A stretch of 49,919 bases of DNA from Actinomycetota bacterium (GTDB lineage: Bacteria > Actinomycetota > Acidimicrobiia > Acidimicrobiales > MedAcidi-G1), in NCBI GenBank assembly GCA_014381745.1, contig JACNLA010000038.1:1-49919 (forward strand). The letters are read 5' to 3'. Shown here piece after piece: positions 4,540 to 37,867 of this stretch (positions are counted from its first letter, which is position 1; each line of letters starts with the position of its first letter). Under the pieces are notes generated by a model that saw nothing but the letters and a program-made list of their open reading frames with translations, had not been told where the DNA came from and did not search any database. Position numbers and translations under genes: made by a program.

Positions 4540-5850
4540 ATGAGCGACATTCGACGGATACGGGTCCTGTGGCCTGATCACCTGGGCCTCCCACGGGGCA
4601 AGTACCTGCCACCCCATCTGGCCGACCGCGGGACACGCCATGCAATCACGCTGTTCGGTCTCACCTACGACCGGGACATGGTGCCTGCCCCGGGAGCAAT
4701 GATGTTTGAGGGCATGCCCGACATGGAATGCCGGTTCGACCCCACCGAGGTGCGCCTCGGCTGGGAGAACGGTGTCGGCGTAGTTGTCGGCGACCTCGAA
4801 CGTGAGGGGGCGCCTCTCCCCCTTGCGCCTCGCCACGTACTCGCCAACGCCATCGACGAATGGAAGGAGCTCGGCTACACCCCCCAGATCGGAATCGAGT
4901 TCGAGGCCTACCTCATGGAGCCGGACGGGGACGGCTGGAAGCCCTACCACTGCCCAGGGTCATTCGTCTACGGGACCGGGCCACTCAATGACCCGGCCGG
5001 AATCGTCAACATGATCCACGACACTGCAGATCAGGTCGGGTTCAGGCTGGAGTCGGTCAACACCGAGTTCGACGCAGCCCAGTTCGAGTTCACGCTTGAG
5101 TACGACAACGCCATGGCTGCCGCAGACGAGGCGTTCCTCTTCAAGGCAATGGCCCGTGACGTCGCCTATGAGCTGGGCTATCTGCTCACGTTCATGCCGA
5201 AGCCCATCATCGACCGCGGCGGGAGCGGCCTCCACATCAACCTCAGCCTCCTGGATGCCGATGGCAACAACGCCCTCCTGGACCCGTCAACCGACGATGG
5301 CCTCTCCGTGCTTGCAAAGCAGTGCATCGCCGGCCAACTCCACCACATGTCAGCGATGACCGCACTGTGCGCTCCCACTGCCAACTCCTACAAGCGACTC
5401 CAGCCGGGTCAGTTGTCGGGCTACTGGAAGAACTGGGGGCACGACCACCGGTGTGCGACGGTCCGCGTCAACCCGGAACGAGACCAGTCGACCCGTCTGG
5501 AGAACCGTATGCCCGACGGTTCTGCCACGATCCACACGGTGGTGGCAGCCGTGCTGACCGCCGCACGCCTTGGTGTCGAAGCCGGCCTTGAGTGCCCTGA
5601 CCCCGAGACGGGCGACGCCCTTGAGGCCGCGTGTACCGAGGAGCATTCTCCTGATGACCTGTCCGAGGCTCTTGCCGCTCTGGAATCCGACTCGACCTTA
5701 GCTAATGCCATCGGCCGCGAAATGGTGGACCAGTTCATGGCCGTGAAAGCAGTCGAATGGGAAAAGTACGTCACCGCAGTAGGGGACACGGACTCCGCGA
5801 GGGACATGGTCACCGACTGGGAGAACGACACGTACCTCCCCTACATCTGA
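4540..5850 (+). CDS. Glutamine synthetase-family ligase (gamma-glutamyl-amine synthetase type)
   Basis: 436-aa member of the glutamine synthetase family. An N-terminal beta-grasp part (IRVLWPDHLGLPRGK) is followed by the catalytic barrel. Visible motifs are GIEFEAYL (metal Glu), NTEFDAAQFEF (metal Glu, ExxxxQxE type), GGSGLHINLSL (metal His), NSYKRLQPGQ and the arginine-bearing ENRMPDGS. Divergent members such as PuuA, IpuC or GmaS attach glutamate to an amine rather than to ammonia; the divergence and operon context favour that role. The start has a GGGGCGAG ribosome-binding region. It is followed after one base by a P450, a pairing also seen at 25428-28008. A nearby amino-acid decarboxylase could supply the amine. 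Confidence 0.8.
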   Translation: MSDIRRIRVLWPDHLGLPRGKYLPPHLADRGTRHAITLFGLTYDRDMVPAPGAMMFEGMPDMECRFDPTEVRLGWENGVGVVVGDLEREGAPLPLAPRHVLANAIDEWKELGYTPQIGIEFEAYLMEPDGDGWKPYHCPGSFVYGTGPLNDPAGIVNMIHDTADQVGFRLESVNTEFDAAQFEFTLEYDNAMAAADEAFLFKAMARDVAYELGYLLTFMPKPIIDRGGSGLHINLSLLDADGNNALLDPSTDDGLSVLAKQCIAGQLHHMSAMTALCAPTANSYKRLQPGQLSGYWKNWGHDHRCATVRVNPERDQSTRLENRMPDGSATIHTVVAAVLTAARLGVEAGLECPDPETGDALEAACTEEHSPDDLSEALAALESDSTLANAIGREMVDQFMAVKAVEWEKYVTAVGDTDSARDMVTDWENDTYLPYI

Positions 5851-12726: not shown

Positions 12727-14994
12727 CTATCCGGTGCCGTTCACTGAGGTTCCGCGGCGGAACCTGCTGAGCCATCCTCGACCTCCGACAAGGTCATCCT
12801 CGTCGCCAAAGCGCGACCCGCGCAATCGCCCTCTTGCGACGAACGCATCCAGGACATTGCCCGTAACTCGTGCCGCGTCATTGTCGAAATTGTCAACCGG
12901 TAGGCCCGAAGCCCAAGCCGACGAACCCACGCTGAACACCGCACCACCATTTCGCGTAGTGAACATGACCATGTCGGCCCGCACTTGATGGTCCTCCTCC
13001 CCGGAGAGCCCCGGATGGTTGAACAGGATCTCCTCGGAGACCTTCATGTAGTCATTCGAAAGACCAACAGCACTTGCCAGAATCCGGGCATGGGGAGGTG
13101 ATCCGAGGAGTCGGTCGTATCGGTCGACCTCCATCGCTGCGGTTCCTCCCGGCCGAAGTGCCTTCGCCCCAACGTCCTCTCCATGTACGCCGTCAAATAC
13201 CCACGCCACGGAGCGATGGAAGCTGTCTGGCATCCGGGAAAACGGAATTCCCGAACTTCTACCCTCAGCAGCCATTCCCACACCGAAGACCTTCTGAGGT
13301 GGACGCCCCTTGGCCCGCCAGAGACCACACCTCTCATCTTCCAAGAAATGGTCGTACTCCCCCGGCTCCGCCTGCCATGGCCGACTACCGGACTCTGCTC
13401 GGCGAACCTCAACCATTGACCGATCGCTGTTGTAGGAAGCCAGCCAGTAGAAACCACCACCACCTAGATACATGATCCGTCCGCCTCGACACGAATACGT
13501 CTCCCATGCATCAAGCATCGCTCTGCTCGCATATGCGGGATACGAACCGGTGACCGCTACCCGGTACTGAGACAGTGCCCCAGCGCCATCACGATCAAGA
13601 TCCTCGTCCGTAATCACGTCAACACTTCGACCCGTGGAGCGGAGAAATGCCAGGATTGATAGATCGGTTGCAAGACGACCTGCAATCGGCAGATCCGGTG
13701 ACCGGTTGAGCGGTTTGAGTTCCGCTACAGGTCTTAGCCGCGATGCCAAAGATATGCCGGCACTGTCAGCGGCTACGTCCAGAGTCGAACCTCCGAAGTC
13801 TCTATAGGCAGCCGCCGGTATGGCCTTGACCTGAGTATGGACCCCTGGATGGACATTCCCCGGTCGACGGCCTCCCTCGGCCATGTAGGACATCGTCGGC
13901 AGAACCAGAACGACGTCAGCCTCCGGGCTGGCGGACCTGACCACAAACGTCAACAGCAGCCTGTCGCCAGGTGCTTCAACAGATAGTGCGTAAACGCCGG
14001 ACGGGAGATAGTCGGGAAGCTTCAGGCTGCTGGCTACCTCCCATAGGCAGTCGGTCAGAGCCTCAGCAGAGTAGCGAAGGGCTGCGTAACCCCCGGGGTC
14101 CAGAGACCACCGGTCGCTGGCGCCAGACCAGTGGGGCCCTGTGACACTGCCGACAGGAAGGTTCACGGAAAACGCATCGTTGCCACCGGGTCCACGATCA
14201 CTCATCGACCGGCCCGGATCGTCGATCCCCGGCAGGGGAATCCAGTGGGCTAGGACCCCCTCTGCTGCCGACAGCGGGTCGATAGCGATCGCATCCAAAT
14301 CAACGCCGTTGAGACCGATACCAACCGAACCGATCTTTCCGGTGAAAGCATCTGTAATTTCAGGGCCGGTGCCACCAGCTCCGATCCTCACGACCTGACC
14401 GCCGCCCCCTTCGGGATAGGAGATCTCGCCGTCGACAGTCTCGGTACCACAGTCGAAGTAGTGCGGACCGAACCTTCCGTTGTAGGGGTTAACTATCGGG
14501 CGGACCTCAAGAACCACGGATTCCGCAGCGAACCTCAGGACCATGAGGTGCCATGTGTGCAACGCAAGAGGTGTATCGATCGACAGTGAACCTCGCACAG
14601 ACCTCACCGTCGCTCGCCCTGAGGGATCCACGACAAGAGCCATCTCATCGCCACCGTTCCAGGACACGACAGTCTGGTCGCACTCGAACCGAAGAGTTGG
14701 ATACACAAACGCCCACACCAGGCGGCCAGGTCGAGCAGCCAGATGATCGTCTCCTCCCGTCACCTCGAAGTGGCTTCCGGGAGCAGTCCGCTGCGGCCGC
14801 ACCTGGACCGTGGCAGGTCCGATGCCATCGACTTCAGATATTGAGGTGCCCGGACCTAGGGGATGTCCATCGGCGTGCTCAACCCGTACGACGGTCATCT
14901 CTACCTCCACCGGTTTGTCGGCCGAGAGGTGGACAGCTATTTCAGCTCCCGGGAGGACGCTGATGTCTGCCAGATAGCCGGTTAAGCCGGTCAC
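12727..14994 (-). CDS. Dimethylformamidase large-subunit-like protein, divergent paralogue
   Basis: 755-aa cytoplasmic protein related along its length to the neighbouring large subunit. It has an N-terminal beta-rich segment, a LamG-like region (about 85-260) and a C-terminal glutamine-amidotransferase-like core with GGRIMYLGGGGFYW and KGRPPQKVFGVGMAAEG. N,N-dimethylformamidase (DMFase) hydrolyses DMF to dimethylamine and formate at a mononuclear iron reported to be held by two Tyr and one Glu. Here several positions conserved in the sister protein are changed: THPEY reads SYPAY, GVEWIF reads SVAWVF, ASSEG reads ASAVG. The Tyr residues remain. It also lacks the sister protein's C-terminal small-subunit-like tail. 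It may be a structural or substrate-specific partner. The GTG start overlaps the upstream stop by 4 bp. Confidence 0.75.
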   Translation of the reverse strand: MTGLTGYLADISVLPGAEIAVHLSADKPVEVEMTVVRVEHADGHPLGPGTSISEVDGIGPATVQVRPQRTAPGSHFEVTGGDDHLAARPGRLVWAFVYPTLRFECDQTVVSWNGGDEMALVVDPSGRATVRSVRGSLSIDTPLALHTWHLMVLRFAAESVVLEVRPIVNPYNGRFGPHYFDCGTETVDGEISYPEGGGGQVVRIGAGGTGPEITDAFTGKIGSVGIGLNGVDLDAIAIDPLSAAEGVLAHWIPLPGIDDPGRSMSDRGPGGNDAFSVNLPVGSVTGPHWSGASDRWSLDPGGYAALRYSAEALTDCLWEVASSLKLPDYLPSGVYALSVEAPGDRLLLTFVVRSASPEADVVLVLPTMSYMAEGGRRPGNVHPGVHTQVKAIPAAAYRDFGGSTLDVAADSAGISLASRLRPVAELKPLNRSPDLPIAGRLATDLSILAFLRSTGRSVDVITDEDLDRDGAGALSQYRVAVTGSYPAYASRAMLDAWETYSCRGGRIMYLGGGGFYWLASYNSDRSMVEVRRAESGSRPWQAEPGEYDHFLEDERCGLWRAKGRPPQKVFGVGMAAEGRSSGIPFSRMPDSFHRSVAWVFDGVHGEDVGAKALRPGGTAAMEVDRYDRLLGSPPHARILASAVGLSNDYMKVSEEILFNHPGLSGEEDHQVRADMVMFTTRNGGAVFSVGSSAWASGLPVDNFDNDAARVTGNVLDAFVARGRLRGSRFGDEDDLVGGRGWLSRFRRGTSVNGTG

Positions 14995-17582
14995 TGTTCA
15001 CCCTCCAGCGCTGCAATCCGATGCAGAAGGAACCGGTGGACTGCCAGTTCCGCGGAGCTAAAGACCTCTGTAGTTCCCTCACGGTGGTCGCTAAGCACAT
15101 AACGGGCATACGGCTGCTCCTCAACAAGTTCCCATCTCGCGCCACTTTCATCTCCACGAAGATGTGACAAAATCCGCAGGTTGACGTCGGAGTGTGGGCC
15201 AAAAACGGCCGCTTCCAGATTGGTCAAGACCGTCCTATCGCACAGCGCAGAGATGACAGCGTCCTGCTTCTGACGCCAAGACCTGACCACAGCCACGTCG
15301 GCATCATCAAGCTCGTCATACAACACTGGCAAGGGGCCATCAGAGGCAAACCGCCTGAGCACGTTCTCGGTAATCCTCGCCACATCATTGTCGTAACCGT
15401 CAACCGGTAGAGCCTGACCCCAGGCGATCGACCCGGTACAGAAACTGGCCCCACCTGAATCAGTCGTCGCGTAGGTCATGTCGCATCGAACACGCGGGTT
15501 GGAGACCGCCGACTGGTTTGGCAGGTTCACGTAGAGATCCTCAATCATCACCAGGTACCCATCGGCTAGCCCCTCCGAAGAAGCGAGAAGGCGGGTGCGG
15601 CCCGGGGTTCCGAGGGTCCGTGCGTACCGGTCGATCTCCATCCCAGCTGCACCACCGTGGGCCAGGCCGAAATCACCGAAGAGCTCCCCGTCCACCGCAT
15701 CGAAGATCCACTCAACACCAGCCCCGTATCCATCGATCTGACGCCTGTAAGGCCCCGAGATGTCCATCCCCTCGGACGTCGTCCCGACTCCAGTCACCTT
15801 CTGTGGACCACGGCCCCTGTTTCGCCACACCCCGCCGCGGACGCCATCGGCCATGTGGTGGTACTCGCCGGGTCGGGCCTGCCATGCACGTGTGCCACCT
15901 TCGAGTTTGCGGACCTCGATCACATCGCCGTCACCCACAAACGAAGTCACCCAGTAGTAGCCGTTGGCACCCAGATACATCAGACGACCGCCATCGGCCA
16001 TAAAGTCCTCGGTGGCCTCAAGCATGTCGCCGCTGTGGTACTCAGGGTGTGTGCCCGTGATTACCACGTTGTAGTGCTTCAGAAGTTCCAACCCCTCCCT
16101 GTGTACATCGTGGTCGGTGATGACCTCGTAATCGATTCCAGTCTGTTCCAGCCAACCCACGATCGAGAGGTCCGCCGGGAACTGCCAGGTGGTGTCAATT
16201 GCTGCAGCGCGGTGCTTTGGATTCATGTCGATGATCGGTCTACGCCAGCCCGAGTAGCAGACCCCGGAAAGATGGTCAGCGTGGTGGTCGTAGGTACTCA
16301 GCCCGAACTGTGAGTTGCGATATAACTCAACATCGGCGGGTGCCAGCACCGGAGTGTGGGAGACAATCGACTGTGCAACCTGAGCATCAAATGCCATAAG
16401 CATGTTTGCATAGGCGAGATAGGAGGCGGTCGGAACCTGGAATGCAACCTTGGCAGTCGGACTCTTCGCCCTTACAAAGAACGGGGCATACGCCTCGGCC
16501 GAACCCGCCCGGAGGCGTATCGCGTAACAGCCGGAGCGAACCTGCGGAACCTCGAATTCGATCGTCGGGGACCACCGACAATTTGTCATAGAACTCTCGG
16601 CGAACAACACCCCTCCGTACTTCTCTGGAGCAGTCAAAAAACACTCGGTCCGGCCATCCCAGTTCCATCCGGTCATTCCACGTGTGGGCATGTTCACCGA
16701 CCTGGCGGTGAGGCCGTTAGGACCCACGTCCAGCAGGTCAGTAGATGCACCACTTGGTGAATATCCGGCAGAGGTATCCCAGAACGCAATCACACCGTCT
16801 GGTGAGTCACCAGAACGGAGCGCCTCCGCCACCTCGCCAGCTCGACAGCCATCCACGATCACCGGGCGATCCAACTTTCCATTGAAAAGCCATTTGACGT
16901 GTTTCCCACGTTCGGCGTTTTCGTCCCAACAACCAGCCAACACCAAAGGTCGTCCAGACCTCCGGACCTTGCGACGGGTCCTCTCGACGACCACCGAATC
17001 AAGATCATGAGGGACCGCCGGAGAGACGACGGAGTTCGTCGACGAGACAACAGCAACCTGACTCAGGGTGATCTTCCGTCGTCTCGGATCACACGTTGCA
17101 ACCACCAGATACCAAACGCGTTCCATGAGCGGGACCTCTGCCATCACATGATCGGTATCAGTCCCATCCCCCAGCCAGAACTCCAAGTGGCCGGAAGAGC
17201 CGATGCCCAGCGCCCATCCACAGTTGCTTGACAAATCGAAGTTCCCGATCAGCACCTGACGTCCGGTTCCCACCAATGAAGGCCAGACAAAGGTTGCGAC
17301 GGTAAAGGGCTCCGTCCCCTCAAGAAGTTCCACACCATCATCGACGACCGCATGGCTGCCAAGTTGGGTGTACTGACGGTGGACGCTGTGCACGCCGTTC
17401 ACCGGATGATCAACCTCGACCTCAACGAATCCTGGCCCATCAGGGTGGGCATCACCATGAACCAACCGCACCAGTTGCACGTCGGCACTTTGAGTTCCCT
17501 CTCCCGAGACCATGACCTGAAGCGAATCGGCTGGTTTGACGCTTATCTCCTCGGAATACGCAAACAACTTCTGGGTCGCCAT
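14991..17582 (-). CDS. Dimethylformamidase large-subunit-like hydrolase with C-terminal small-subunit-like domain
   Basis: 863-aa protein without signal peptide. Residues 1-80 form a beta-rich N-terminus, about 85-260 a LamG-like concanavalin fold, and about 380-750 the DMFase catalytic core with GTHPEYHSGDM (511-519), GGRLMYLGANGYYW (531-544), GRGPQKVTGVGTTSEG and GAGVEWIFDAV (Glu624). The last roughly 110 residues (about 754-863) align with the tail of the upstream permease: GPHSDVNLRILSHLR matches GRHSPELDRLLNYFR, and VHRFLLHRI matches YHAVFLRRI. I read this as a fused DMFase alpha-subunit-like domain. The family splits N-alkyl amides using iron; the substrate here is unknown. The ATG at 17582 follows the permease stop by one base, so translation is coupled. 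Confidence 0.8.
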   Translation of the reverse strand: MATQKLFAYSEEISVKPADSLQVMVSGEGTQSADVQLVRLVHGDAHPDGPGFVEVEVDHPVNGVHSVHRQYTQLGSHAVVDDGVELLEGTEPFTVATFVWPSLVGTGRQVLIGNFDLSSNCGWALGIGSSGHLEFWLGDGTDTDHVMAEVPLMERVWYLVVATCDPRRRKITLSQVAVVSSTNSVVSPAVPHDLDSVVVERTRRKVRRSGRPLVLAGCWDENAERGKHVKWLFNGKLDRPVIVDGCRAGEVAEALRSGDSPDGVIAFWDTSAGYSPSGASTDLLDVGPNGLTARSVNMPTRGMTGWNWDGRTECFLTAPEKYGGVLFAESSMTNCRWSPTIEFEVPQVRSGCYAIRLRAGSAEAYAPFFVRAKSPTAKVAFQVPTASYLAYANMLMAFDAQVAQSIVSHTPVLAPADVELYRNSQFGLSTYDHHADHLSGVCYSGWRRPIIDMNPKHRAAAIDTTWQFPADLSIVGWLEQTGIDYEVITDHDVHREGLELLKHYNVVITGTHPEYHSGDMLEATEDFMADGGRLMYLGANGYYWVTSFVGDGDVIEVRKLEGGTRAWQARPGEYHHMADGVRGGVWRNRGRGPQKVTGVGTTSEGMDISGPYRRQIDGYGAGVEWIFDAVDGELFGDFGLAHGGAAGMEIDRYARTLGTPGRTRLLASSEGLADGYLVMIEDLYVNLPNQSAVSNPRVRCDMTYATTDSGGASFCTGSIAWGQALPVDGYDNDVARITENVLRRFASDGPLPVLYDELDDADVAVVRSWRQKQDAVISALCDRTVLTNLEAAVFGPHSDVNLRILSHLRGDESGARWELVEEQPYARYVLSDHREGTTEVFSSAELAVHRFLLHRIAALEGEQ

Positions 17583-17583
17583 G

Positions 17584-19083
17584 TCAGGACTCCATGAGAT
17601 CGTGGATCCGCCGAAGGAACACGGCGTGATATGCATCGTCCAGCGAGCCGTAGACCTTCTCATCAACCTCTCTCGGCGGAATCCCACGAACTCCAGAGAG
17701 GGCGACGACCCGATATGTGCTGAACGGCTCGACGGTCATCACTGCGTACTTATCGGCCAACTCACCCTTCCTGAAATAGTTGAGGAGTCGATCCAGTTCG
17801 GGTGAGTGCCGACCAACCGGTCTGGCCTGATGCTCGGCAACTACCGCCTCCGTAACAAGTTCCCTTAACTGCCACCGATAACGATCATTGAACCTGGCTA
17901 CGGCCACAAGGTCCTTGTCGTCGGTTAGAGCAGCCTCCTCACTGGTGAGGTCGCCCTGTCGCTGGCTTGCCGCGGCAATTCGTTCAGATTTGTGCTTATC
18001 ACGCCACCGCCGATACTGCCCGGGGATTCCGTACAGGCCTCCCTTGGTAAACAACGCGGTGAGGACCACGACAACGCCAATACCGATGATCCGTATGGGA
18101 CCGATGCTGATCAACCCGTTGTGGACGAATACCACAAGGGCGGTCCCTATGACGACTCCCTCAGCCGACCCCACACCGCCGACCACGACCATCGCGAACA
18201 TCAGCAACAGGAGGCCCATGTCGAAGACGCTTGGGGCCATGCTCCGGTTATAGGCGGCAAAAAACCCTCCGACCATTCCCAGAGCCGAGGATGAAATTAC
18301 GAAGAGGCTCAGCCTGATTCGGACGAGGTCGACACCGATTGCGTCGCCATACGCCTCTGAGTCGCGGGTCGTCCTTAGCAGCAGACCCAACCGGCGACCC
18401 TCAAGCACCCGATACAGGACAAGAACTAGCACGAAGGGAACCAACGCCACCAGCACACGGATTCGGAGACCGTCTATCGAGAACATCTGGTCCTTGGATA
18501 GGTAGGTTGGTAGGCTGATGAGACCTCCAGAGGCGGAACCGAACCCCCGCGACTGTTTGAAGAACGTGCGCGCCACCTCGACAACACCCAGCGTCAAGAG
18601 GGCGTAGTACATCCCGTCGAGCCTCTGTGCTGGAACTCCGATAACGACGCCCATTACGGCCCCGGTGACAGCACCGACGACCAACATGACATACCAAGGG
18701 AGCCCTGTCTCTAGTGCCACCCGCCCGGCAATGAATCCAGAAGTCCCGACGATGGCAAGGGTCCCGAGGCTGAACACTCCAGCCGAGCCCATTACCAGAG
18801 CCCACATGATGTTGATTGCAGCGTAGATGGCAAAGATTCCCATCACATTCAACGCTGTGCGATTGTCCACTACCACGGTTAGAAGCGCGAACAGCACCAG
18901 CGCCACAGCCCACCAGAAGGTCCTCTCGTCAACAAACTCCCTTTCCCGCCGAAGAGTCCTGGGGTTCACATAGGCGCGTCTTGCGAACGCATGCCGATCG
19001 CTCCTGACCTGACGCCACTGGTGGAGAGGCCGGCGCGACCTGACGAAGGTCTGTCTGATGCTCTTGAACTTCCTTTTACTCAT
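17584..19083 (-). CDS. LivM-type ABC permease fused to a dimethylformamidase small-subunit-like domain
   Basis: 499-aa fusion. A basic N-terminal extension (1-50) is followed by a LivM-type permease with multiple membrane segments (about 55-350, including FGSASGGLISLPTYLS and the DSEAYGDAIGVDLVRIRL cytoplasmic loop). A charged linker (355-397) then leads to a soluble domain of about 100 residues (398-499) containing GRHSPELDRLLNYFRKG and AYHAVFLRRIHDLMES. As I recall it, the DMFase alpha subunit (about 130 aa) ends in the same way, with a NYFR segment and HAVFLRRI. LivM C-termini face the cytoplasm, so the domain would sit where the two large subunits encoded next could dock. The ATG at 19083 overlaps the LivH stop by 8 bp; an upstream extension to 19152 is unlikely. 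Confidence 0.82.
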   Translation of the reverse strand: MSKRKFKSIRQTFVRSRRPLHQWRQVRSDRHAFARRAYVNPRTLRREREFVDERTFWWAVALVLFALLTVVVDNRTALNVMGIFAIYAAINIMWALVMGSAGVFSLGTLAIVGTSGFIAGRVALETGLPWYVMLVVGAVTGAVMGVVIGVPAQRLDGMYYALLTLGVVEVARTFFKQSRGFGSASGGLISLPTYLSKDQMFSIDGLRIRVLVALVPFVLVLVLYRVLEGRRLGLLLRTTRDSEAYGDAIGVDLVRIRLSLFVISSSALGMVGGFFAAYNRSMAPSVFDMGLLLLMFAMVVVGGVGSAEGVVIGTALVVFVHNGLISIGPIRIIGIGVVVVLTALFTKGGLYGIPGQYRRWRDKHKSERIAAASQRQGDLTSEEAALTDDKDLVAVARFNDRYRWQLRELVTEAVVAEHQARPVGRHSPELDRLLNYFRKGELADKYAVMTVEPFSTYRVVALSGVRGIPPREVDEKVYGSLDDAYHAVFLRRIHDLMES

Positions 19084-19966
19084 CAGCTTCTCGAACCTCG
19101 TCCAGAAGGCCACCAATACCTCGTGGCCTCGCCAGCAACACCCCGACAACAAGTGCGAACTGCGTGTAGAGCACGTACTGCCCTCCGACGAACCGAGCCG
19201 TACCAGCCTCGGTCGCCCCCAGAACCAGCGCTGCTAGAAGTGCTCCGGGAATGGACCCCAGCCCACCCAGCAGGGCTATGACGAGGCCCTTGATGAGCGG
19301 CGTGCTCCAGGAGTACGGACTGGCGAAGAAGATCTCCTGGAGGAGTACAGCTGAGAGCCCGGCGAGCGCTCCCGACACCATCATGACCACGACCGCTGTC
19401 CGGTTCAAACTCACGCCTACGAGTGCCGCACCCTCTGGATTCTGCATGAGCGCACGTACTCGTAGCCCACTGCGTGAACGCCGGAACCAGATGAGCGTTG
19501 CCAGAAGCACGACTGCTGCGGTGACAATCATTCCTGTCCGATCTGGAAGGATTACTGTGCCGAACAGGTTGATGGAGTCGAAGGTGAATACTGACGGGAT
19601 ATTCTTCGCCTTTGGTCCGAACACCCTGAGAAGAATCTGGGTGCCGACGAGGTTCAGCGCCAACGTGATCGTCAACGACCGGACCGGGAAGTTCTCCTGA
19701 CGCTTGATCGGCAGGAACGCGACGGCAACCACGACCAACCCCGTAAAAGCACCTGTAACCACACCCGCGATAACAACTCCTACGGGATTCGCGGAGACCT
19801 CCGTACCGAACCACCATGCCCCGTAGCCGGCAAATCCGAAGGTGATGCCGTGTGCGAGGTTCAGTAACCCGAGCGACGACCAGGTGAGGGAGATGCCGAT
19901 AGCAAGTAGCCCGTATCCCGCCGCCAATGACAACGTTGACACCAAAACGGCTACGAGCGTTTCCAT
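19076..19966 (-). CDS. LivH-type ABC transporter permease
   Basis: 296-aa hydrophobic permease of the branched-chain amino acid/amide (HAAT) importer family. GLLNLAHGITFGFAGYGAWW is the conserved N-terminal signature. NPEGAALVGVSLNRTAVVVM is the cytoplasmic loop contacting the ATPase, and GLVIALLGGLGSIPGALLAAL is the conserved late membrane region. It forms the membrane pore with the LivM-fusion protein. Its start shares one base with the LivF stop (TGATG) and its end overlaps the LivM start. HAAT importers carry amino acids, urea and short-chain amides, compatible with the amide hydrolase genes downstream. Confidence 0.9.
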   Translation of the reverse strand: METLVAVLVSTLSLAAGYGLLAIGISLTWSSLGLLNLAHGITFGFAGYGAWWFGTEVSANPVGVVIAGVVTGAFTGLVVVAVAFLPIKRQENFPVRSLTITLALNLVGTQILLRVFGPKAKNIPSVFTFDSINLFGTVILPDRTGMIVTAAVVLLATLIWFRRSRSGLRVRALMQNPEGAALVGVSLNRTAVVVMMVSGALAGLSAVLLQEIFFASPYSWSTPLIKGLVIALLGGLGSIPGALLAALVLGATEAGTARFVGGQYVLYTQFALVVGVLLARPRGIGGLLDEVREADE

Positions 19967-20679
19967 CAGTGGTCCACCGAGATTCCGGCGAAGGCATCTG
20001 CCGCATCCTGTTTGATCTGACCAGAGTGCATTCCCAGTATGCGGTCCATCCGTCCACTCAGCAGGGGAATGCTCTGCTCGGCAATGACCATCGCCCCCTC
20101 GCCCAGTTCGACCTGACCGAGTGCATCAATCACCCCGGCCGCGATCTTTGGCGCAAGGCCCAGAGACGGTTCATCAACAAGGAACACGCGGTTGTCACCC
20201 ATCAGCCCCCTCGCCAACGAGACCATGCGTCTCTCACCTCCGGACATCTTTCCGACAGGCATGTCCAACAGCGGTCGCAGGGGGGGGAATATCTCCAACA
20301 CCGAGTCCAGACGACCCCGCCGCCGCCGCCATGTACCTGACGAGGTGACACCGGTCAGAACGTTCTGTTCGACTGTTAGACCGGGAAAGATCGCATCGCC
20401 CTGCGGAAGGAGAGCCACACCACTGGCAGCTATGCGGTGTGTACGCCTGCCGGGAGCCGACATCCGCCTGCCGCCAATCTCACGGCCCCCCAAGAGGATG
20501 CTTCCAGTCTGCCAGTCGGTGAGGCCCAAAATTGCCCGGAACAGGGTCGTCTTGCCGTGACCGTTAAGGCCCATTATCGCCAGGCGCTCACCTGCATGGA
20601 CCACAAGGTCCAGATCATGGATTACCCGCATGGGTCCATACCCTGCGCTCAGCGATCTGATCTCCAGCAGCCCTGTCAC
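19966..20679 (-). CDS. LivF-type ABC transporter ATPase
   Basis: 237-aa ATPase subunit. Walker A is GLNGHGKTT, with the usual Ala replaced by His; the signature is MSGGERRMVSLARGL; Walker B is VFLVDEPSLGLAP, followed by the switch region ending VIAEQSIP. LivF proteins pair with LivG as the ATPase heterodimer of HAAT importers. It starts at a GTG overlapping the LivG stop by 4 bp. The C-terminal DAFAGISVDH is short and ordinary. Confidence 0.92.
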   Translation of the reverse strand: MTGLLEIRSLSAGYGPMRVIHDLDLVVHAGERLAIMGLNGHGKTTLFRAILGLTDWQTGSILLGGREIGGRRMSAPGRRTHRIAASGVALLPQGDAIFPGLTVEQNVLTGVTSSGTWRRRRGRLDSVLEIFPPLRPLLDMPVGKMSGGERRMVSLARGLMGDNRVFLVDEPSLGLAPKIAAGVIDALGQVELGEGAMVIAEQSIPLLSGRMDRILGMHSGQIKQDAADAFAGISVDH

Positions 20680-21446
20680 AGCGTGGCCTCCGAGATTTCT
20701 TCCTCTGCGCTACCGGTGTCGAAATAGGCGTCTCTGACCACGGGGTCGCTGAAGACAGCCTCCGCTGAGCCCTCGGCAATGATCCTGCCAACATCCATCA
20801 CCGCAACCCGATCCGTAATGGCGTCCAGCAGTTCCAGCCTGTGCTCGACGATTACCACGCCGATCTGGAGTTCCCAGGCGGCTTCCTTGATGATGAAGTC
20901 CAACTCGTCGATCTCCGCACTCACGAGACCAGACGCCGGCTCATCCAGCAGCAGAACCTTGGGCCTGCGCATCAACAGGCAGGCAAGCAGTACCTTCCTC
21001 CTGTCGAGAGTTTCAAGACCGCCACACGTAAGTGCCTGAGGGGCGTCCAGGTGGACCATGTCGACGGCCCACTCGGCATCCATCCTGGATCGCGTGGGGG
21101 AGAATGCCTTTCTGGAGGCCTCCATCACCTCTGCAACCGTGAGATTCTCGGGAACTACCGGATGCTGGAAGGTACGAGCCACACCGCGCCTGACACGGTA
21201 TGGGTGCCGCAGATCATTCAGGGACTCACCATCCAGCCTGACATCACCTGTGTAGTTCCGGTGGCGACCGCTCAGGACGTCCAGCAAACTTGTCTTGCCC
21301 GCACCATTCGGGCCCGCAATCCCGACGATCTCACCCGATGTGACGTTGAGCGAGACACCGCTGAGAATCTCGCGCCCACCAAGACTGAGGTGGATTTCTG
21401 AACACCCGAACTGGTGTCCAGAAATCCCTCCGCCCTCAAGATCCAC
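20676..21446 (-). CDS. LivG-type ABC transporter ATPase with a degenerate signature motif
   Basis: 256-aa ATPase subunit. Walker A is GPNGAGKTS and Walker B is VLLLDEPASGL, followed by the H-loop VIVEHRLELL. The usual signature (LSGGQ, or LSYGQQRR in LivG) is not recognisable; the matching place reads LTCGGLETLDRRKVLLA. One composite ATP site in the LivGF dimer would then be altered. LivG normally ends in a short tail that contacts the permease; here it is EEEISEATL. A GTG start 9 bp after the binding-protein stop fits the tight operon. Confidence 0.88.
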   Translation of the reverse strand: MDLEGGGISGHQFGCSEIHLSLGGREILSGVSLNVTSGEIVGIAGPNGAGKTSLLDVLSGRHRNYTGDVRLDGESLNDLRHPYRVRRGVARTFQHPVVPENLTVAEVMEASRKAFSPTRSRMDAEWAVDMVHLDAPQALTCGGLETLDRRKVLLACLLMRRPKVLLLDEPASGLVSAEIDELDFIIKEAAWELQIGVVIVEHRLELLDAITDRVAVMDVGRIIAEGSAEAVFSDPVVRDAYFDTGSAEEEISEATL

Positions 21447-21455
21447 TAGTCAGTC

Positions 21456-24032
21456 TCAGCCCTGTGCCCATGGGGGTGTGATGTAGTCCACCTCGTCGTA
21501 GGGCTCGGGGTAGATGATGCGGTGTGCACCGTCCTGCACCTGAAGGAACAGGTGGGCCTGGCCTGCCTCAGGATCCGATACCTGGTCCGGGTAGGTCTGT
21601 CCCGAGTGGTTCTCATCAAACGAGTAGAAACCGGTGACGCCTCGGTATGCAGTCTTTTCGATCGCATCGATTACAGGACCGAACTCCGTGGTCCCAGCTG
21701 CCTCGATAGCGTCAGCCAACAACTGGACGGTGTCATAGCCACCACCCGTGTAGGCAAGCCCCATTGTCCCCGGGAAACGCGCCTGGTATGCGTCCCTGAA
21801 CGCCTGACCCTGCTCGTCGGCGTAGGTTCCCAGCACCGTGCCCCACACGAAGCCCTCTGTCGCCTCACCACCAAGATCCAAGAACTCAGGTTGACTCGGT
21901 CCGTACTGCAGGTACACCAACGCACCCTCGACCGGGTCAGCACTAAACGCCTGGGCGAATGCCGCCAACTCGGCCGCCACCCAGTAGTCGATCATGATCA
22001 CGCCAGCATCCGAATCATGCAGTTCCGCAATGACCGGCGCCCAGTCCTGAACGGGGAACTGAATGTCAGTAATCCCCCCCAACTCCCATGTGCCACCCGA
22101 TGCTTCCAAAGCAGCCTGGGTGGCCTCGGAGATAACCTGGGTGTAGGCGATCTGACCCTGCACGATGTGCATCCGGTTGTTCTTCGGGACCCACTCACCA
22201 GAAGCCGCCAGGTCATCTAGAAACGCTGGAAGACCAGCCCCGTACCACACCTCAGAAGTATCGATCTGGAACATGTTCCGATAAGCGACAGGGTCCGAGG
22301 CGTAGAGATCCAACATCGACTGCTGCGTGTTGCCATGCAGATAAGGCGCCCCATAGGCAGCAGCAGCATCCATGGCCGGCTGGGGAATCAACACGAATGG
22401 CGACAGGATCGCATCAACCTCAGCATCAGCCATCGCCAAGAACCCGGCCGCCGTCCCATCAGGAGTCAAAATGTCGGTATCGACGATGAAGGTCTCCAAC
22501 GGCCGACCCAACACGCCACCAACAGCGTTGATCTCCTCAATAGCCAACGTGACACCGTTCACCCAATCCTGATGGTCCGCAACACCCACAGGACCAGACT
22601 GATTCACCGGCAAACCCAACACAATCGGCTCACCAGACGCCGGTACAGCAACCTCTACGCCCTGTGCCCATGGGGGTGTGATGTAGTCCACCTCGTCGTA
22701 GGGCTCGGGGTAGATGATGCGGTGTGCACCGTCCTGCACCTGAAGGAACAGGTGGGCCTGGCCTGCCTCAGGATCCGATACCTGGTCCGGGTAGGTCTGT
22801 CCCGAGTGGTTCTCATCAAACGAGTAGAAACCGGTGACGCCTCGGTATGCAGTCTTTTCGATCGCATCGATTACAGGACCGAACTCCGTGGTCCCAGCTG
22901 CCTCGATAGCGTCAGCCAACAACTGGACGGTGTCATAGCCACCACCCGTGTAGGCAAGCCCCATTGTCCCCGGGAAACGCGCCTGGTATGCGTCCCTGAA
23001 CGCCTGACCCTGCTCGTCGGCGTAGGTTCCCAGCACCGTGCCCCACACGAAGCCCTCTGTCGCCTCACCACCAAGATCCAAGAACTCAGGTTGACTCGGT
23101 CCGTACTGCAGGTACACCAACGCACCCTCGACCGGGTCAGCACTAAACGCCTGGGCGAATGCCGCCAACTCGGCCGCCACCCAGTAGTCGATCATGATCA
23201 CGCCAGCATCCGAATCATGCAGTTCCGCAATGACCGGCGCCCAGTCCTGAACGGGGAACTGAATGTCAGTAATCCCCCCCAACTCCCATGTGCCACCCGA
23301 TGCTTCCAAAGCAGCCTGGGTGGCCTCGGAGATAACCTGGGTGTAGGCGATCTGACCCTGCACGATGTGCATCCGGTTGTTCTTCGGGACCCACTCACCA
23401 GAAGCCGCCAGGTCATCTAGAAACGCTGGAAGACCAGCCCCGTACCACACCTCAGAAGTATCGATCTGGAACATGTTCCGATAAGCGACAGGGTCCGAGG
23501 CGTAGAGATCCAACATCGACTGCTGCGTGTTGCCATGCAGATAAGGCGCCCCATAGGCAGCAGCAGCATCCATGGCCGGCTGGGGAATCAACACGAATGG
23601 CGACAGGATCGCATCAACCTCAGCATCAGCCATCGCCAAGAACCCGGCCGCCGTCCCATCAGGAGTCAAAATGTCGGTATCGACGATGAAGGTCTCCAAC
23701 GGCCGACCCAACACGCCACCAACAGCGTTGATCTCCTCAATAGCCAACGTGACACCGTTCACCCAATCCTGATGGTCCGCAACACCCACAGGACCAGACT
23801 GATTCACCGGCAAACCCAACACAATCGGCTCACCAGACGCCGGTACAGCAACCTCTACGGTCGTAGCAGGGGCAGTCGTAGCAGGGGCAGTCGTAGCAGG
23901 GGCAGTCGTAGCAGCAGGAGCAGCGGTCGTTGCTGCAGGCTGCTCAGTTGCACCCTCTTCGGTCGATCCTCCACAACCCGCCAGCAGCAGGAGCGCAGCC
24001 GACACAAGGCCGATCAGTGTCATTCGTCGCAT
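21456..24032 (-). CDS. Lipoprotein substrate-binding protein with two identical LivJ-type units
   Basis: 858-aa precursor. A lipoprotein signal (MRRMTLIGLVSAALLLLAGC, Cys20) and an Ala/Thr/Pro linker (about 21-58) are followed by two copies of a 400-residue type I periplasmic-binding domain (59-458 and 459-858), from VEVAVPASGEP to PPWAQG. The copies are identical in protein and, as far as I can read, in DNA (two 1200-bp units). The second copy starts exactly where the stop codon of the first would be. LivJ-type proteins are usually about 400 aa with one domain. It should be anchored outside the membrane and deliver an amino acid or amide to LivHM. I chose the ATG at 24032, with GGAGGGG 10 bp upstream, over the one at 24059. 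A duplication artefact of assembly must be considered. Confidence 0.85.
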   Translation of the reverse strand: MRRMTLIGLVSAALLLLAGCGGSTEEGATEQPAATTAAPAATTAPATTAPATTAPATTVEVAVPASGEPIVLGLPVNQSGPVGVADHQDWVNGVTLAIEEINAVGGVLGRPLETFIVDTDILTPDGTAAGFLAMADAEVDAILSPFVLIPQPAMDAAAAYGAPYLHGNTQQSMLDLYASDPVAYRNMFQIDTSEVWYGAGLPAFLDDLAASGEWVPKNNRMHIVQGQIAYTQVISEATQAALEASGGTWELGGITDIQFPVQDWAPVIAELHDSDAGVIMIDYWVAAELAAFAQAFSADPVEGALVYLQYGPSQPEFLDLGGEATEGFVWGTVLGTYADEQGQAFRDAYQARFPGTMGLAYTGGGYDTVQLLADAIEAAGTTEFGPVIDAIEKTAYRGVTGFYSFDENHSGQTYPDQVSDPEAGQAHLFLQVQDGAHRIIYPEPYDEVDYITPPWAQGVEVAVPASGEPIVLGLPVNQSGPVGVADHQDWVNGVTLAIEEINAVGGVLGRPLETFIVDTDILTPDGTAAGFLAMADAEVDAILSPFVLIPQPAMDAAAAYGAPYLHGNTQQSMLDLYASDPVAYRNMFQIDTSEVWYGAGLPAFLDDLAASGEWVPKNNRMHIVQGQIAYTQVISEATQAALEASGGTWELGGITDIQFPVQDWAPVIAELHDSDAGVIMIDYWVAAELAAFAQAFSADPVEGALVYLQYGPSQPEFLDLGGEATEGFVWGTVLGTYADEQGQAFRDAYQARFPGTMGLAYTGGGYDTVQLLADAIEAAGTTEFGPVIDAIEKTAYRGVTGFYSFDENHSGQTYPDQVSDPEAGQAHLFLQVQDGAHRIIYPEPYDEVDYITPPWAQG
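21460..22659. repeat. 1200-bp direct repeat, unit 1
   Basis: Perfect direct repeat with 22660-23859, period 1200 bp (400 codons), wholly inside the binding-protein gene. No base difference was found on reading all lines of both copies. Coding for the C-terminal unit. Confidence 0.95.
22660..23859. repeat. 1200-bp direct repeat, unit 2
   Basis: Second copy of the unit at 21460-22659; codes for the N-terminal binding unit and abuts the linker minisatellite. Confidence 0.95.
23860..23919. repeat. 15-bp minisatellite coding the Ala/Thr/Pro linker
   Basis: GTCGTAGCAGGGGCA occurs three times in perfect tandem (23860-23904), followed by a diverged fourth copy. It encodes the ATTAP-type linker between the lipidated Cys and the first binding domain, on the minus strand. 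Likely to vary in length between strains. Confidence 0.8.
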
Positions 24033-24132
24033 TATCAGATCCCCTCCGGTGTCAGCCACGAGCGAATTGCCGCGCCACTTAACACCCAGTTTGTATGTCG
24101 TCTAGGATTGGGGATCATCCAGTCCTTGTACA

Positions 24133-24181: not shown

Positions 24182-25171
24182 TTGCACGTTCACGCTCGGA
24201 CGGCATCAGAGGTGGCAGCCATTGCCTCCTCAACTACCGGACCTGCTCAGCGCGCCCATGATCTTCTAGTTGCTCTCAAAGCGGTTGTGCCAAGCATCGC
24301 GTCGAACATCACTCTGTCGCAACAGCGCGGCCGAGGCCACGAGTCGCTCGCGTGCCACGATTACGACAGCCAAGTCGAAAAACGCCTTAACTCCATCAGT
24401 TTCGACCACGAGGTGAGACTTCTCGGTTTGCACGACCACCGCAATCCAACTCGTATGCGCGACATTCCAGACGGACCAGAAAGCAACGATTCGGTAAGGG
24501 AGTTCCTGTATCCAGCCGGTTATGAGGAGGGAATGACCACGGCCCTCTTCACTTCAAGCAACCGCTATGTGGGCCTGCTCAACATGTCAACAGATGACGC
24601 CAGCCAACCGACCAATAATGCGCGATCGCTTGTAGGGATGCTTGCAAAGGCAATAGCGAACGCCGTGGATCCGGCCCTGGACATTGATCTTCTGCTTAGC
24701 GGCTTCGACAGCTTGACGGATGCTGCCCTGATTGATGTCGATGGAGTTGCTCATCCAGTGGGTGACCGACCGATGGGACTGCTTGCCGACCACCGGGTCG
24801 CTTCAGCAGTAAGCCGACGCCTCACCAGCGGATCTGGAAGGTGGTTGTTGAACACCACTGATGGAACCTGGTTACAACTACACGCATTCAGGCGCACCGA
24901 GAGTCAGATGCAGTCGATCCTGACGGTTGTGGAACCCAGAACCGACCTGTTGGGCCTCACGCGCCGCGAACTCCAGGTACTCAGCCTTATCATCTTCGGC
25001 TGTCAGAACGCTGAAATCGCTCGACGGCTCGACATTGCCAGACGAACTGTGTCTACACATGTGGAGGCGATCCTCCACAAACTTGGCCTCCCCAACCGTT
25101 CCGCTGCCGTCGCTGTGGCTCTGGAGAACGGCCTGTCCCTACTGGACCTCGAAGAGTTGAGTGCCAACTGA
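24182..25171 (+). CDS. LuxR-type regulator with an N-terminal sensor region
   Basis: 329-aa regulator. Residues about 20-160 look like a GAF-type sensor (mixed alpha/beta, with ALFTSSNRYVGLLNMS as a typical strand pair), followed by a second small domain. The C-terminal LuxR helix-turn-helix (about 262-325) contains LTRRELQVLSLIIFGCQN, AEIARRLDIARRTVSTHV and AILHKLGLPNRS. It has no receiver domain, so it probably senses a small molecule directly. The start is a TTG with GAGGT upstream; a GTG at 24212 is an alternative. Divergent from the amide importer/hydrolase operon and next to a symmetrical inverted repeat, it is the likely local regulator. Confidence 0.82.
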   Translation: MHVHARTASEVAAIASSTTGPAQRAHDLLVALKAVVPSIASNITLSQQRGRGHESLACHDYDSQVEKRLNSISFDHEVRLLGLHDHRNPTRMRDIPDGPESNDSVREFLYPAGYEEGMTTALFTSSNRYVGLLNMSTDDASQPTNNARSLVGMLAKAIANAVDPALDIDLLLSGFDSLTDAALIDVDGVAHPVGDRPMGLLADHRVASAVSRRLTSGSGRWLLNTTDGTWLQLHAFRRTESQMQSILTVVEPRTDLLGLTRRELQVLSLIIFGCQNAEIARRLDIARRTVSTHVEAILHKLGLPNRSAAVAVALENGLSLLDLEELSAN

Positions 25172-26661: not shown

Positions 26662-28008
26662 TCAACTGAAGTCGATGAACCGGGCTCGTTCCCAGTCGTT
26701 CACATTGTCGGGATCGGGGTTGTTTTCGGCAGCCAGAGCCACCTCGGCCCTGGCAATGCTGCTAAAGCTTGTGGCGAACATGTCGCCGAGCATGGCAGCG
26801 AGTGCACTCCCCTCGAAGGCGTCGATTGCTCCGGAGAGGTTCGTCGGCAGGGGCACGCAGTCCCCCGGGTTGGTGTACATGTCTCCCTCCGACATGGCTG
26901 GAAGCTCGAGCGACCTCTCAACCCCGTCGCACCCGGCGGCAAGTAGGCCCGCTATGAGCAGGTACGGGTTGGCGTCGGCGCCAGCCGATCTGAACTCAAC
27001 ACGGTTGGATGACGATCCGGGCTCGACCACGCAGCGGGCCAGGACGGTCCTGTTGTCGAGCCCCCAGTGCACGTGCGTGGGAGCGAACGTGTAGGGCCGA
27101 ATCCGCTTGGGCCCGTTCGTCGTGGGGGTCGCCACGAGCGACATGGCCAGAGCGTGCTCAAGCATTCCTGCAGTCCAGCAGGACATCAGCGGATTTGGCA
27201 GGTGGTCGGCTTCGGCGAAAGCGTTGGATCCGTCCACGATCAGGCTGGTGTGGACGTGCATTCCGGAGCCGGATTGCTCGGTAAACGGCTTTGGCATGAA
27301 GGTCGCCCTGAGGCCGTGTTTCACCGCCACCTGGTGGACGATCGACTTGAACAGAACCGTGTTGTCGGCGGTCCTCATTGCATCCGTGGGGCCAGAGTTG
27401 AGTTCGAACTGGCCAGGTCCGTACTCGGAGTTGGATGACTCAACCTCGATTCCGGCACCTGCAACAGCAACCCGCATCTCTGCCAGGACCTCCTCAGCTC
27501 CAATCGCGTCCGTCAGGGAGCTGTACTGAATGTGTTGCTGAATGGGTTCCCAGTCCGGGGTGCACAGGTAGAACTCCAGCTCGGTTGCGACGAGGGGATC
27601 AAGACCGAGTTCCAGACAGCGGTCAATCTGTCGAGCCAGCACAGTTCGGGGCGCAAGGGAGTGGAGGTCCCCATCCACCCCATAAGCGTCGGCGAACACA
27701 AGCGCGTAGCCCGGACGGTGGGTCAACAGGCGGGCGGTGCCGATGTCTGGAATGAGGCGGGTGTCCAGGTAGCCGGTGTCCATGTTCACGAACTCGTTGT
27801 CTGGAAGGTCGTTTTGCATGTCGAACACGAAGATGGCGTCGGCGATGGCGACACCACGGGTGGCACATGCTGAAAAGAACCGCTCCTTGGGAATCCGCTT
27901 GCCGCGGAGGTGCCCCTGCGTGTCGGGCACCGCTATCTCAACAGTGTGCACGTCGTGTTCGTCGCACAATGTACGAAAGGACTCGAGGGTGTGGGTGGGG
28001 GGTGTCAT
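26662..28008 (-). CDS. Glutamine synthetase-family ligase (gamma-glutamyl-amine synthetase type)
   Basis: 448-aa member of the family, distinct from the copy at 4540. The beta-grasp N-terminus (VPDTQGHLRGKRIPKERFF) is followed by motifs VATELEFYL (Glu), NSEYGPGQFELN (Glu pair), GSGMHVHTSL (His), TTNGPKRIRPYTFAP, LDNRTVLARC and NRVEFRSAGADANPYL (Arg). The retained NGPKR and GSGxH patterns resemble PuuA-type ligases making gamma-glutamyl amides from ATP, glutamate and an amine. The divergent gene at 31040 encodes a PuuD-like gamma-glutamyl hydrolase, which would remove the glutamyl group at the end. An alcohol dehydrogenase and a P450 lie alongside. Confidence 0.83.
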   Translation of the reverse strand: MTPPTHTLESFRTLCDEHDVHTVEIAVPDTQGHLRGKRIPKERFFSACATRGVAIADAIFVFDMQNDLPDNEFVNMDTGYLDTRLIPDIGTARLLTHRPGYALVFADAYGVDGDLHSLAPRTVLARQIDRCLELGLDPLVATELEFYLCTPDWEPIQQHIQYSSLTDAIGAEEVLAEMRVAVAGAGIEVESSNSEYGPGQFELNSGPTDAMRTADNTVLFKSIVHQVAVKHGLRATFMPKPFTEQSGSGMHVHTSLIVDGSNAFAEADHLPNPLMSCWTAGMLEHALAMSLVATPTTNGPKRIRPYTFAPTHVHWGLDNRTVLARCVVEPGSSSNRVEFRSAGADANPYLLIAGLLAAGCDGVERSLELPAMSEGDMYTNPGDCVPLPTNLSGAIDAFEGSALAAMLGDMFATSFSSIARAEVALAAENNPDPDNVNDWERARFIDFS

Positions 28009-31039: not shown

Positions 31040-31753
31040 ATGGCCAACAGACCTCTGATCGGAATCACCGGCAGGCGCAAGAAGGGGCGAGACATCGTCG
31101 ACAACCTGGAGGTCCTGTCCGACTTCGACGTCGACCTCTACTACGCCGACTACGCCAACGGCGTTCTCGAGGCCGGAGGCCTGCCCGTTCACCTCCCGGT
31201 CGATGCTGACCCGGTTGACCTGCTCGACCATCTGGACGGACTCATCCTCCCTGGTGGAGCAGACATAGACCCGGGTCGGTACGGGGCCGAATCGGAGACA
31301 GACGACTTTCCACCCGAACCCACAAGGGACGAACAGGAACTCGCCCTCGTGAACCGGGCCTACGAACTGACAGTTCCCATCCTCGGCATCTGCCGCGGCC
31401 TGCAGATCATCAACGTCTACGCAGGCGGAACACTCCACCAGGACGTGGCACCACACGCTGGCTTCGACCAGCCGACCACCACCGAATGGCACACGGTCAC
31501 CTTCGAGTCCGGCTCGGTCCTCGGAGGCATCTACGGAGCAGAACGCCCTGTCAACTCGCTTCACCACCAGACGATCAACCGCGTCGGTGACGGTCTCCGG
31601 GTGAGCGCCCGATCTCCCGAGGGTTCCATCGAGGGAATCGAACACACGGACCTTCCGATCGTCGCCGTTCAGTGGCACCCCGAGATGCTTCCAACCAGAC
31701 CATCAGATCCACTGTTCACCTGGTTGGTCGAAGCGGCTACCGAGCGGTCCTGA
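31040..31753 (+). CDS. PuuD-like gamma-glutamyl hydrolase (peptidase C26)
   Basis: 237-aa class I glutamine-amidotransferase-fold hydrolase. Features are LILPGGADIDPGRYG, the nucleophile in ILGICRGLQIINVYAGG, HHQTINRVGDGL and the His/Glu of VQWHPE, all diagnostic of gamma-glutamyl-gamma-aminobutyrate hydrolases. Such enzymes release glutamate from gamma-glutamylated acids after the amine carbon chain has been oxidised. Divergent from a GntR-led operon encoding a glutamine-synthetase-like ligase, it completes a plausible glutamylation, oxidation and deglutamylation route. The ATG has GGAG upstream. It converges with the second ABC transporter operon. Confidence 0.88.
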   Translation: MANRPLIGITGRRKKGRDIVDNLEVLSDFDVDLYYADYANGVLEAGGLPVHLPVDADPVDLLDHLDGLILPGGADIDPGRYGAESETDDFPPEPTRDEQELALVNRAYELTVPILGICRGLQIINVYAGGTLHQDVAPHAGFDQPTTTEWHTVTFESGSVLGGIYGAERPVNSLHHQTINRVGDGLRVSARSPEGSIEGIEHTDLPIVAVQWHPEMLPTRPSDPLFTWLVEAATERS

Positions 31754-37717: not shown

Positions 37718-37867
37718 TATTCTCCCCCTCAAGGTTTCTGGTTCGTGGTGTTCGGTAGATCAGCAGATCGAATAGGCGCACTTTTGCATAAAATATACAG
37801 ACGGAGCAAATGCTGTTGTCGTCCGACGGGCGGAGACGCCTGACCGGGGGCGGTGGACCCGAACTCC

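Follow-up and report, generated by a model that had tools for sequence, protein, structure and literature searches.

The N,N-dimethylformamidase (DMFase) of Paracoccus (DmfA1/DmfA2; PDB 6lvb) is described as an α2β2 assembly with activity dependent on α (PMC7686228): β expressed without α is inactive, and the active-site cavity is located at the α/β interface. The catalytic residues reside in β, where Y399, Y440 and E521 serve as the iron ligands and H519 is required, and the α domain carries no iron ligand; the Y440A, E521A and H519A substitutions abolish activity, with Y440A and E521A also losing iron (PMC7686228). The dmfA1A2 genes are activated by DmfR, a member of the LuxR family (PMC4543880).

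The locus described here lies within a window (the whole stretch of DNA that was analysed) of 49,919 nucleotides from an Actinomycetota bacterium. As in DmfA1/DmfA2, an α gene is followed by a β gene, the α tail and the large subunit β1 are homologous to their Paracoccus counterparts along their lengths, the two-Tyr-one-Glu iron ligands plus the catalytic His are found in β1, and a LuxR-type regulator is nearby. It differs from the Paracoccus system in that α is covalently built into an ABC permease and preceded by an importer operon, a second and putatively dead β is present, and β1 bears an α-like tail. Relative to the LivM/HAAT ABC permeases (LivM, UrtC), the fusion has the same BPD_transp_2 domain and the same order of substrate-binding protein (SBP), ATPases, LivH and LivM, yet differs by a C-terminal enzyme-subunit domain of ~100 aa and a basic N-terminal extension of ~50 aa.

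The N-acetyl-(R)-β-phenylalanine acylase (PDB 8huy) has a related large subunit (E = 4.8e-97 for β1), but the 8huy entry consists of a large-subunit-type chain only, and we know of no transporter association for this acylase. Single-chain α-β DMFase-like proteins (L010, L013, L015 and L016) likewise join α to a partner in one polypeptide; however, this partner is β, while that in the window is a permease. In these proteins, most of which come from a single family within the order of the window, an α-like domain is positioned N-terminal to β in the same open frame, and their architecture indicates that α and β act together.

The features of the locus, in window coordinates, are as follows.

12727..14994 (-): DMFase large-subunit paralogue β2, 755 aa
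14991..17582 (-): DMFase large subunit β1, 863 aa, catalytic residues intact
14994..15323 (-): diverged second α-like domain (α′) at the C terminus of β1
16041..16412 (-): iron-site stretch of β1, by alignment to Paracoccus DMFase
16410-16412, 16290-16292, 16047-16049 and 16041-16043 (-): β1 counterparts of Y399, Y440, H519 and E521, respectively
17584..19083 (-): LivM-type ABC permease with in-frame DMFase α (small-subunit) domain, 499 aa plus stop
17587..17919 (-): DMFase α (small-subunit) domain of the fusion, residues 389-499
17920..17988 (-): charged linker from the last transmembrane helix to the α domain, residues 366-388, low pLDDT
18103..18855 (-): BPD_transp_2 (LivM-type) transmembrane domain of the fusion, residues 77-327, Pfam E = 1.2e-22
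18928..19083 (-): basic N-terminal extension of the fusion, residues 1-52, with 17 K/R and 4 D/E
19076..19966 (-): LivH-type permease, in the same place in all fused cassettes that are long enough
19966..20679 (-): LivF-type ATPase
20676..21446 (-): LivG-type ATPase
21456..24059 (-): periplasmic SBP (Peripla_BP_6), its single ORF reading as two exact copies in tandem
24182..25171 (+): divergent LuxR-type regulator, conserved in actinobacterial cassettes

The permease and its C-terminal α domain

The ORF at 17584-19083, from which the initial annotation had inferred a permease continuing into a DMFase small-subunit-like domain, is real and uninterrupted; its strand, left unstated there, is the minus one. 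The 499-aa product is a single minus-strand frame, and translation of the plus strand of this stretch encounters 11 stops. Against BPD_transp_2 the fusion scored 80.8 bits, which passes the Pfam gathering cut-off of 26.8. The NCBIfam LivM equivalog NF008450 scored 68.1, below its cut-off of 366, and two UrtC models, at 65.2 and 45.9, missed their cut-offs of 575.6 and 296.2, respectively. In the AlphaFold2 (AF2) model of the fusion, which was built with natural homologues and has a mean pLDDT of 78, the membrane part is similar to the BtuC-type permease fold (Foldseek). Structure prediction covers single chains only, and the linker of the fusion was modelled at low confidence. The basic N-terminal extension, with the motif NP[KR]TL..E...DK[RK]P, is common to all full-length LivM-α fusions (alignment columns 1-95).

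No Pfam or NCBIfam model recognises the fusion tail. In a phmmer comparison of the 98-aa tail with PDB chains, however, the DMFase small subunit 6lvb_B was matched over 84 residues (E = 8.5e-9), with the second-best match at only E = 0.37; the two segments that the initial annotation had likened to the DMFase α subunit, GRHSPELDRLLNYFR and AYHAVFLRRI, both align to 6lvb_B. The tail blocks of the AF2 model are mostly at pLDDT 84-95, and the best Foldseek matches of the tail are 6lvv_B/6lvb_B (probability 1.00; TM (target) 0.82-0.83; rmsd 1.1-1.4; 115 columns), the α fold of four helices and two strands being present (TM 0.83 and rmsd 1.1 to 6lvb_B). Sequence and fold agree on a DMFase α identity, the one first proposed for the tail. 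A chance resemblance to DMFase α is excluded by the phmmer and Foldseek matches. Rather than a free-standing soluble subunit of ~15 kDa, α is here joined to LivM, and likewise in 17 other loci.

Right behind the last helix of the fusion is a strongly basic segment, QYRRWRDKHKSER, and β1, with the N terminus MATQKLFAYSEE, has no evident signal peptide. Thus the tail is most likely cytosolic, an inference from charge and family knowledge.

Distribution and gene neighbourhood of the fusion

When 84,980 species genomes were scanned with an alignment of four tail rows, 28 loci were obtained. By translating the frames upstream of the tail, the LivM fusion was found in 17 loci besides the window (16 genomes, with one MAG holding two), which are distributed among Actinomycetota (aquatic MAGs), Betaproteobacteria (Rhodocyclaceae and Ideonella) and Alphaproteobacteria (Hoeflea, Rhodopseudomonas, Bradyrhizobium and Acidisphaera). 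At a coverage of 80% or more, the fusion is matched by 26 records of the plasmid collection, the matches listed including plasmids of Rhizobium, Agrobacterium (pAt), Aminobacter (pMDW2, from the methomyl-degrading strain MDW-2) and Ensifer; in Agrobacterium, Rhizobium and Aminobacter the in-frame fusion is present on finished plasmids. The architecture that the initial annotation described from this window alone is thus present elsewhere, in distant bacteria as well. Where annotated (RefSeq), the plasmid-borne proteins are merely called 'branched-chain amino acid ABC transporter permease', and the public annotations examined do not name the tail.

Among 396 genomes of the phylum, one member of the α family was found besides that of the window. 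In the sampled genomes of the same genus and the same family the tail remained unmatched, free-standing α included, indicating that the cassette is sporadic there; a phage search gave no match. Free-standing α genes are found in Pseudonocardia, Natronococcus, Paracoccus/Labrys/Methylorubrum, an actinobacterial MAG (L035) and Rhizorhabdus (L044). On both the β and the α trees the fused label requires two changes, versus ~6.2 with shuffled labels, with modest support for the fused node. As Rhizorhabdus is an exception inside the fused group, its α being unfused though located within the fused clade, the trees suggest, as the simplest reading, a fusion that arose once and was later lost once.

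The order SBP-LivG-LivF-LivH-LivM::α-DMFβ holds throughout the fused loci to the extent that their contigs cover it, and the β gene is immediately 3′ of the fusion in every locus showing that region. In the window, a single base separates the permease stop (17584-17586) from the β1 ATG (17582), and the next two genes are indeed DMFase large-subunit-like (DMFA2_C; E = 1.6e-82 and 7.4e-68, Pfam), both points having been correctly read in the initial annotation. The LuxR-type regulator of the window is weakly similar (25%) to the LuxR gene that precedes the DMFase genes in L042.

The cassette is adjoined by a flavin amine oxidase gene in L023, a methylamine-dehydrogenase heavy chain gene in L031, an HDAC-like deacetylase gene in L022, a gene for a PotD-like polyamine-binding protein in L026 and, in the window, genes for glutamine-synthetase-like/γ-glutamyl-amine type enzymes and for a PuuD-like hydrolase. 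Since amine-handling genes adjoin it in different lineages, the substrate is inferred to be probably a small N-substituted (N-acyl) amide whose hydrolysis releases an amine, which does not imply DMF itself; the genes vary from lineage to lineage and hence do not point to one particular substrate.

In the window, the glutamine-synthetase-like genes are located at 4540-5850 (+) and 26662-28008 (-), with P450 genes beside them; the nearest NCBIfam models of the two enzymes are γ-glutamylputrescine synthetase and type III glutamine synthetase, both below cut-off. The PuuD-like hydrolase is encoded at 31040-31753, and a second HAAT-type ABC cluster at 31779-33635 (-) features a permease fused to an ATPase (618 aa, judged from translation).

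All three Peripla_BP_6 genes found in the genome are exact in-frame tandem duplications: 21456-24059 (-) with 1201 bp at an offset of 1200, 35234-37732 (-) with 1093 bp at an offset of 1170 followed by one mismatch plus 33 bp, and G000:C13:25765-28041 with 1131 bp at an offset of 1146. Comparable exact SBP doubling was not evident among the matches listed for sampled family members. These repeats either arose as an artefact of assembly or are a real, if odd, feature of the genome.

The large subunits β1 and β2

The β1 subunit matches 6lvb_A with an E value of 2.6e-170. In the alignment, Y399, Y440, H519 and E521 are kept in β1 and in those βs of fused cassettes for which the region is present, except the Aminobacter duplicate. 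At the C terminus of the window β1 are ~105 extra residues that are absent from all other complete βs examined; the other βs of the fused group mostly end with a short EEKxW motif. As α rows aligned to full-length β1 did not fall on its tail, the tail was tested alone. It then matched α in hhalign (95.6%, E = 1.1e-8, 102 columns) and scored 25.3 bits against the α HMM, the best of 2000 shuffles reaching 14.3 bits, which bears out the likeness between the fusion tail and the β1 C terminus that had been noticed within the window. The predicted fold of this α′ domain has 6lvv_B as its first match, with moderate agreement (probability 1.00, TM 0.63, rmsd 5.2), yet this test is partly circular because the AF2 alignment included α sequences.

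In β2, the alignment revealed the changes Y399E, Y440L, H519Y and E521A, that is, loss of all three iron ligands and of the catalytic His. With E, L, Y and A in these positions, β2 should not bind iron and is predicted to be catalytically dead. On Aminobacter pMDW2 (L049 15538-20281), two tandem DMFβ genes are positioned behind the fusion; the second is 84% identical to the first and thus stems from a separate duplication. It has A at E521, the same change that inactivates the Paracoccus enzyme, with the two Tyr and the His kept. Therefore, judging from these alignments, the live/dead β pair appears to have arisen twice.

It is somewhat doubtful, though by no means excluded, that β2 is a decaying pseudo-enzyme or performs new chemistry instead of partnering β1, a possibility that is not exclusive of the other alternatives considered below. 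Its long branch in the β tree and the loss of three iron ligands would be expected of such a protein; yet the β2 ORF is intact over 755 aa and overlaps β1 by 4 nt (start/stop), and a β with the E521A loss has evolved independently on Aminobacter pMDW2.

Proposed coupling of uptake and hydrolysis

We consider it probable that the locus is a dedicated uptake-plus-hydrolysis operon, in which α is carried on LivM, β1 is docked there and paired with β2, and an amide is hydrolysed beside the cytosolic exit. The SBP/LivHMGF ABC importer would take up a small N-substituted amide; the LivM C terminus, facing the cytoplasm, would be the α of a dimethylformamidase-type iron amidohydrolase; soluble β1, with its 2-Tyr-1-Glu iron site plus His, would bind this tail, giving an active enzyme only on the importer; and beside the cytosolic exit the amide would be converted into a carboxylic acid and an amine. 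As each transporter contains a single LivM, and hence a single α, we hypothesize that the α-like tail of β1 stands in for the second, and that pairing of β1 with the putatively dead β2 would complete an asymmetric α-α′-β1-β2 unit, each transporter then bearing a whole complex in which one active site is live.

The hydrolase is likely to be docked on the importer; the inference, drawn by analogy, is a strong one because Paracoccus β is inactive without α (PMC7686228), and should α be equally indispensable here, the enzyme would be active only when assembled on the importer. Since the fusion and the gene order recur in distant bacteria, the enzyme is probably kept at the importer so that the amide is cut on entry, with the docking itself being inferred. 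An active-site entrance at the permease exit, with direct channelling, is possible but unproven; the region beneath the permeases is taken up by two ATPases, which may preclude such a placement and leave the enzyme next to the exit instead of directly at it. A full importer-hydrolase metabolon, with one live site per transporter, a tunnel at the exit and hydrolysis before cytosolic mixing (an ABC analogue of group translocation), can only be put forward tentatively and is rather unlikely.

The fusion could instead serve co-expression and membrane anchoring only (stoichiometry, anti-aggregation), without coupling to transport. This seems unlikely: translational coupling through the one-base gap is already there, and the unfused α of Rhizorhabdus within the fused clade indicates that the fusion is not strictly required, both of which speak for such a role; but in Actinomycetota and in two classes of Proteobacteria the long-conserved fusion is specifically to LivM, and not to its neighbours LivH, LivF or LivG, and unfused α genes are also found near transporters, that of L035 directly behind an SSS symporter gene and that of L040 near a BCCT-like carrier.

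C-terminal regulatory domains are known on some ABC importer subunits, and the α tail may by that precedent be a regulatory sensor, with transport gated by the binding of β to LivM and without any special link between hydrolysis and entry. The lack of an iron ligand in α, with the catalytic residues in β, is compatible with this; however, in the Paracoccus enzyme β needs α (PMC7686228), by which a tethered α would control the enzyme as well as transport. In addition, no free-standing α was noticed in the fused cassettes, and gating alone leaves the preserved β iron site unexplained, which makes a pure sensor distinctly improbable. Scarcely credible, finally, is a frameshift or chimera that joined adjacent genes, which the initial annotation had named as a possible refutation: the 44-contig assembly of a 2.19-Mb genome and the exact tandem SBP repeats nearby do cast doubt on the assembly, but no sign of such an event was seen, and a local error of frame or joining is ruled out because the fusion, its linker being homologous throughout, recurs at 17 other loci as well as on plasmids finished by independent laboratories.

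In the dimethylformamidase literature, judged in part on title and abstract or by keyword, no description of a LivM::α fusion was found; the locus is a new conserved architecture made of known parts. Whether substrate passes directly from ABC importers to catabolic enzymes is difficult to examine, since as a rule importer and enzyme are distinct proteins. In this cassette an essential enzyme subunit is welded to a permease in several bacterial groups, making the coupling testable by cutting one linker. If it is indeed a dedicated uptake-plus-hydrolysis operon, it would add a function to proteins annotated solely as branched-chain amino acid permeases, would point to the natural substrates of the little-known 2-Tyr-1-Glu iron amidohydrolases, and would offer a case of a dead partner subunit that evolved repeatedly.
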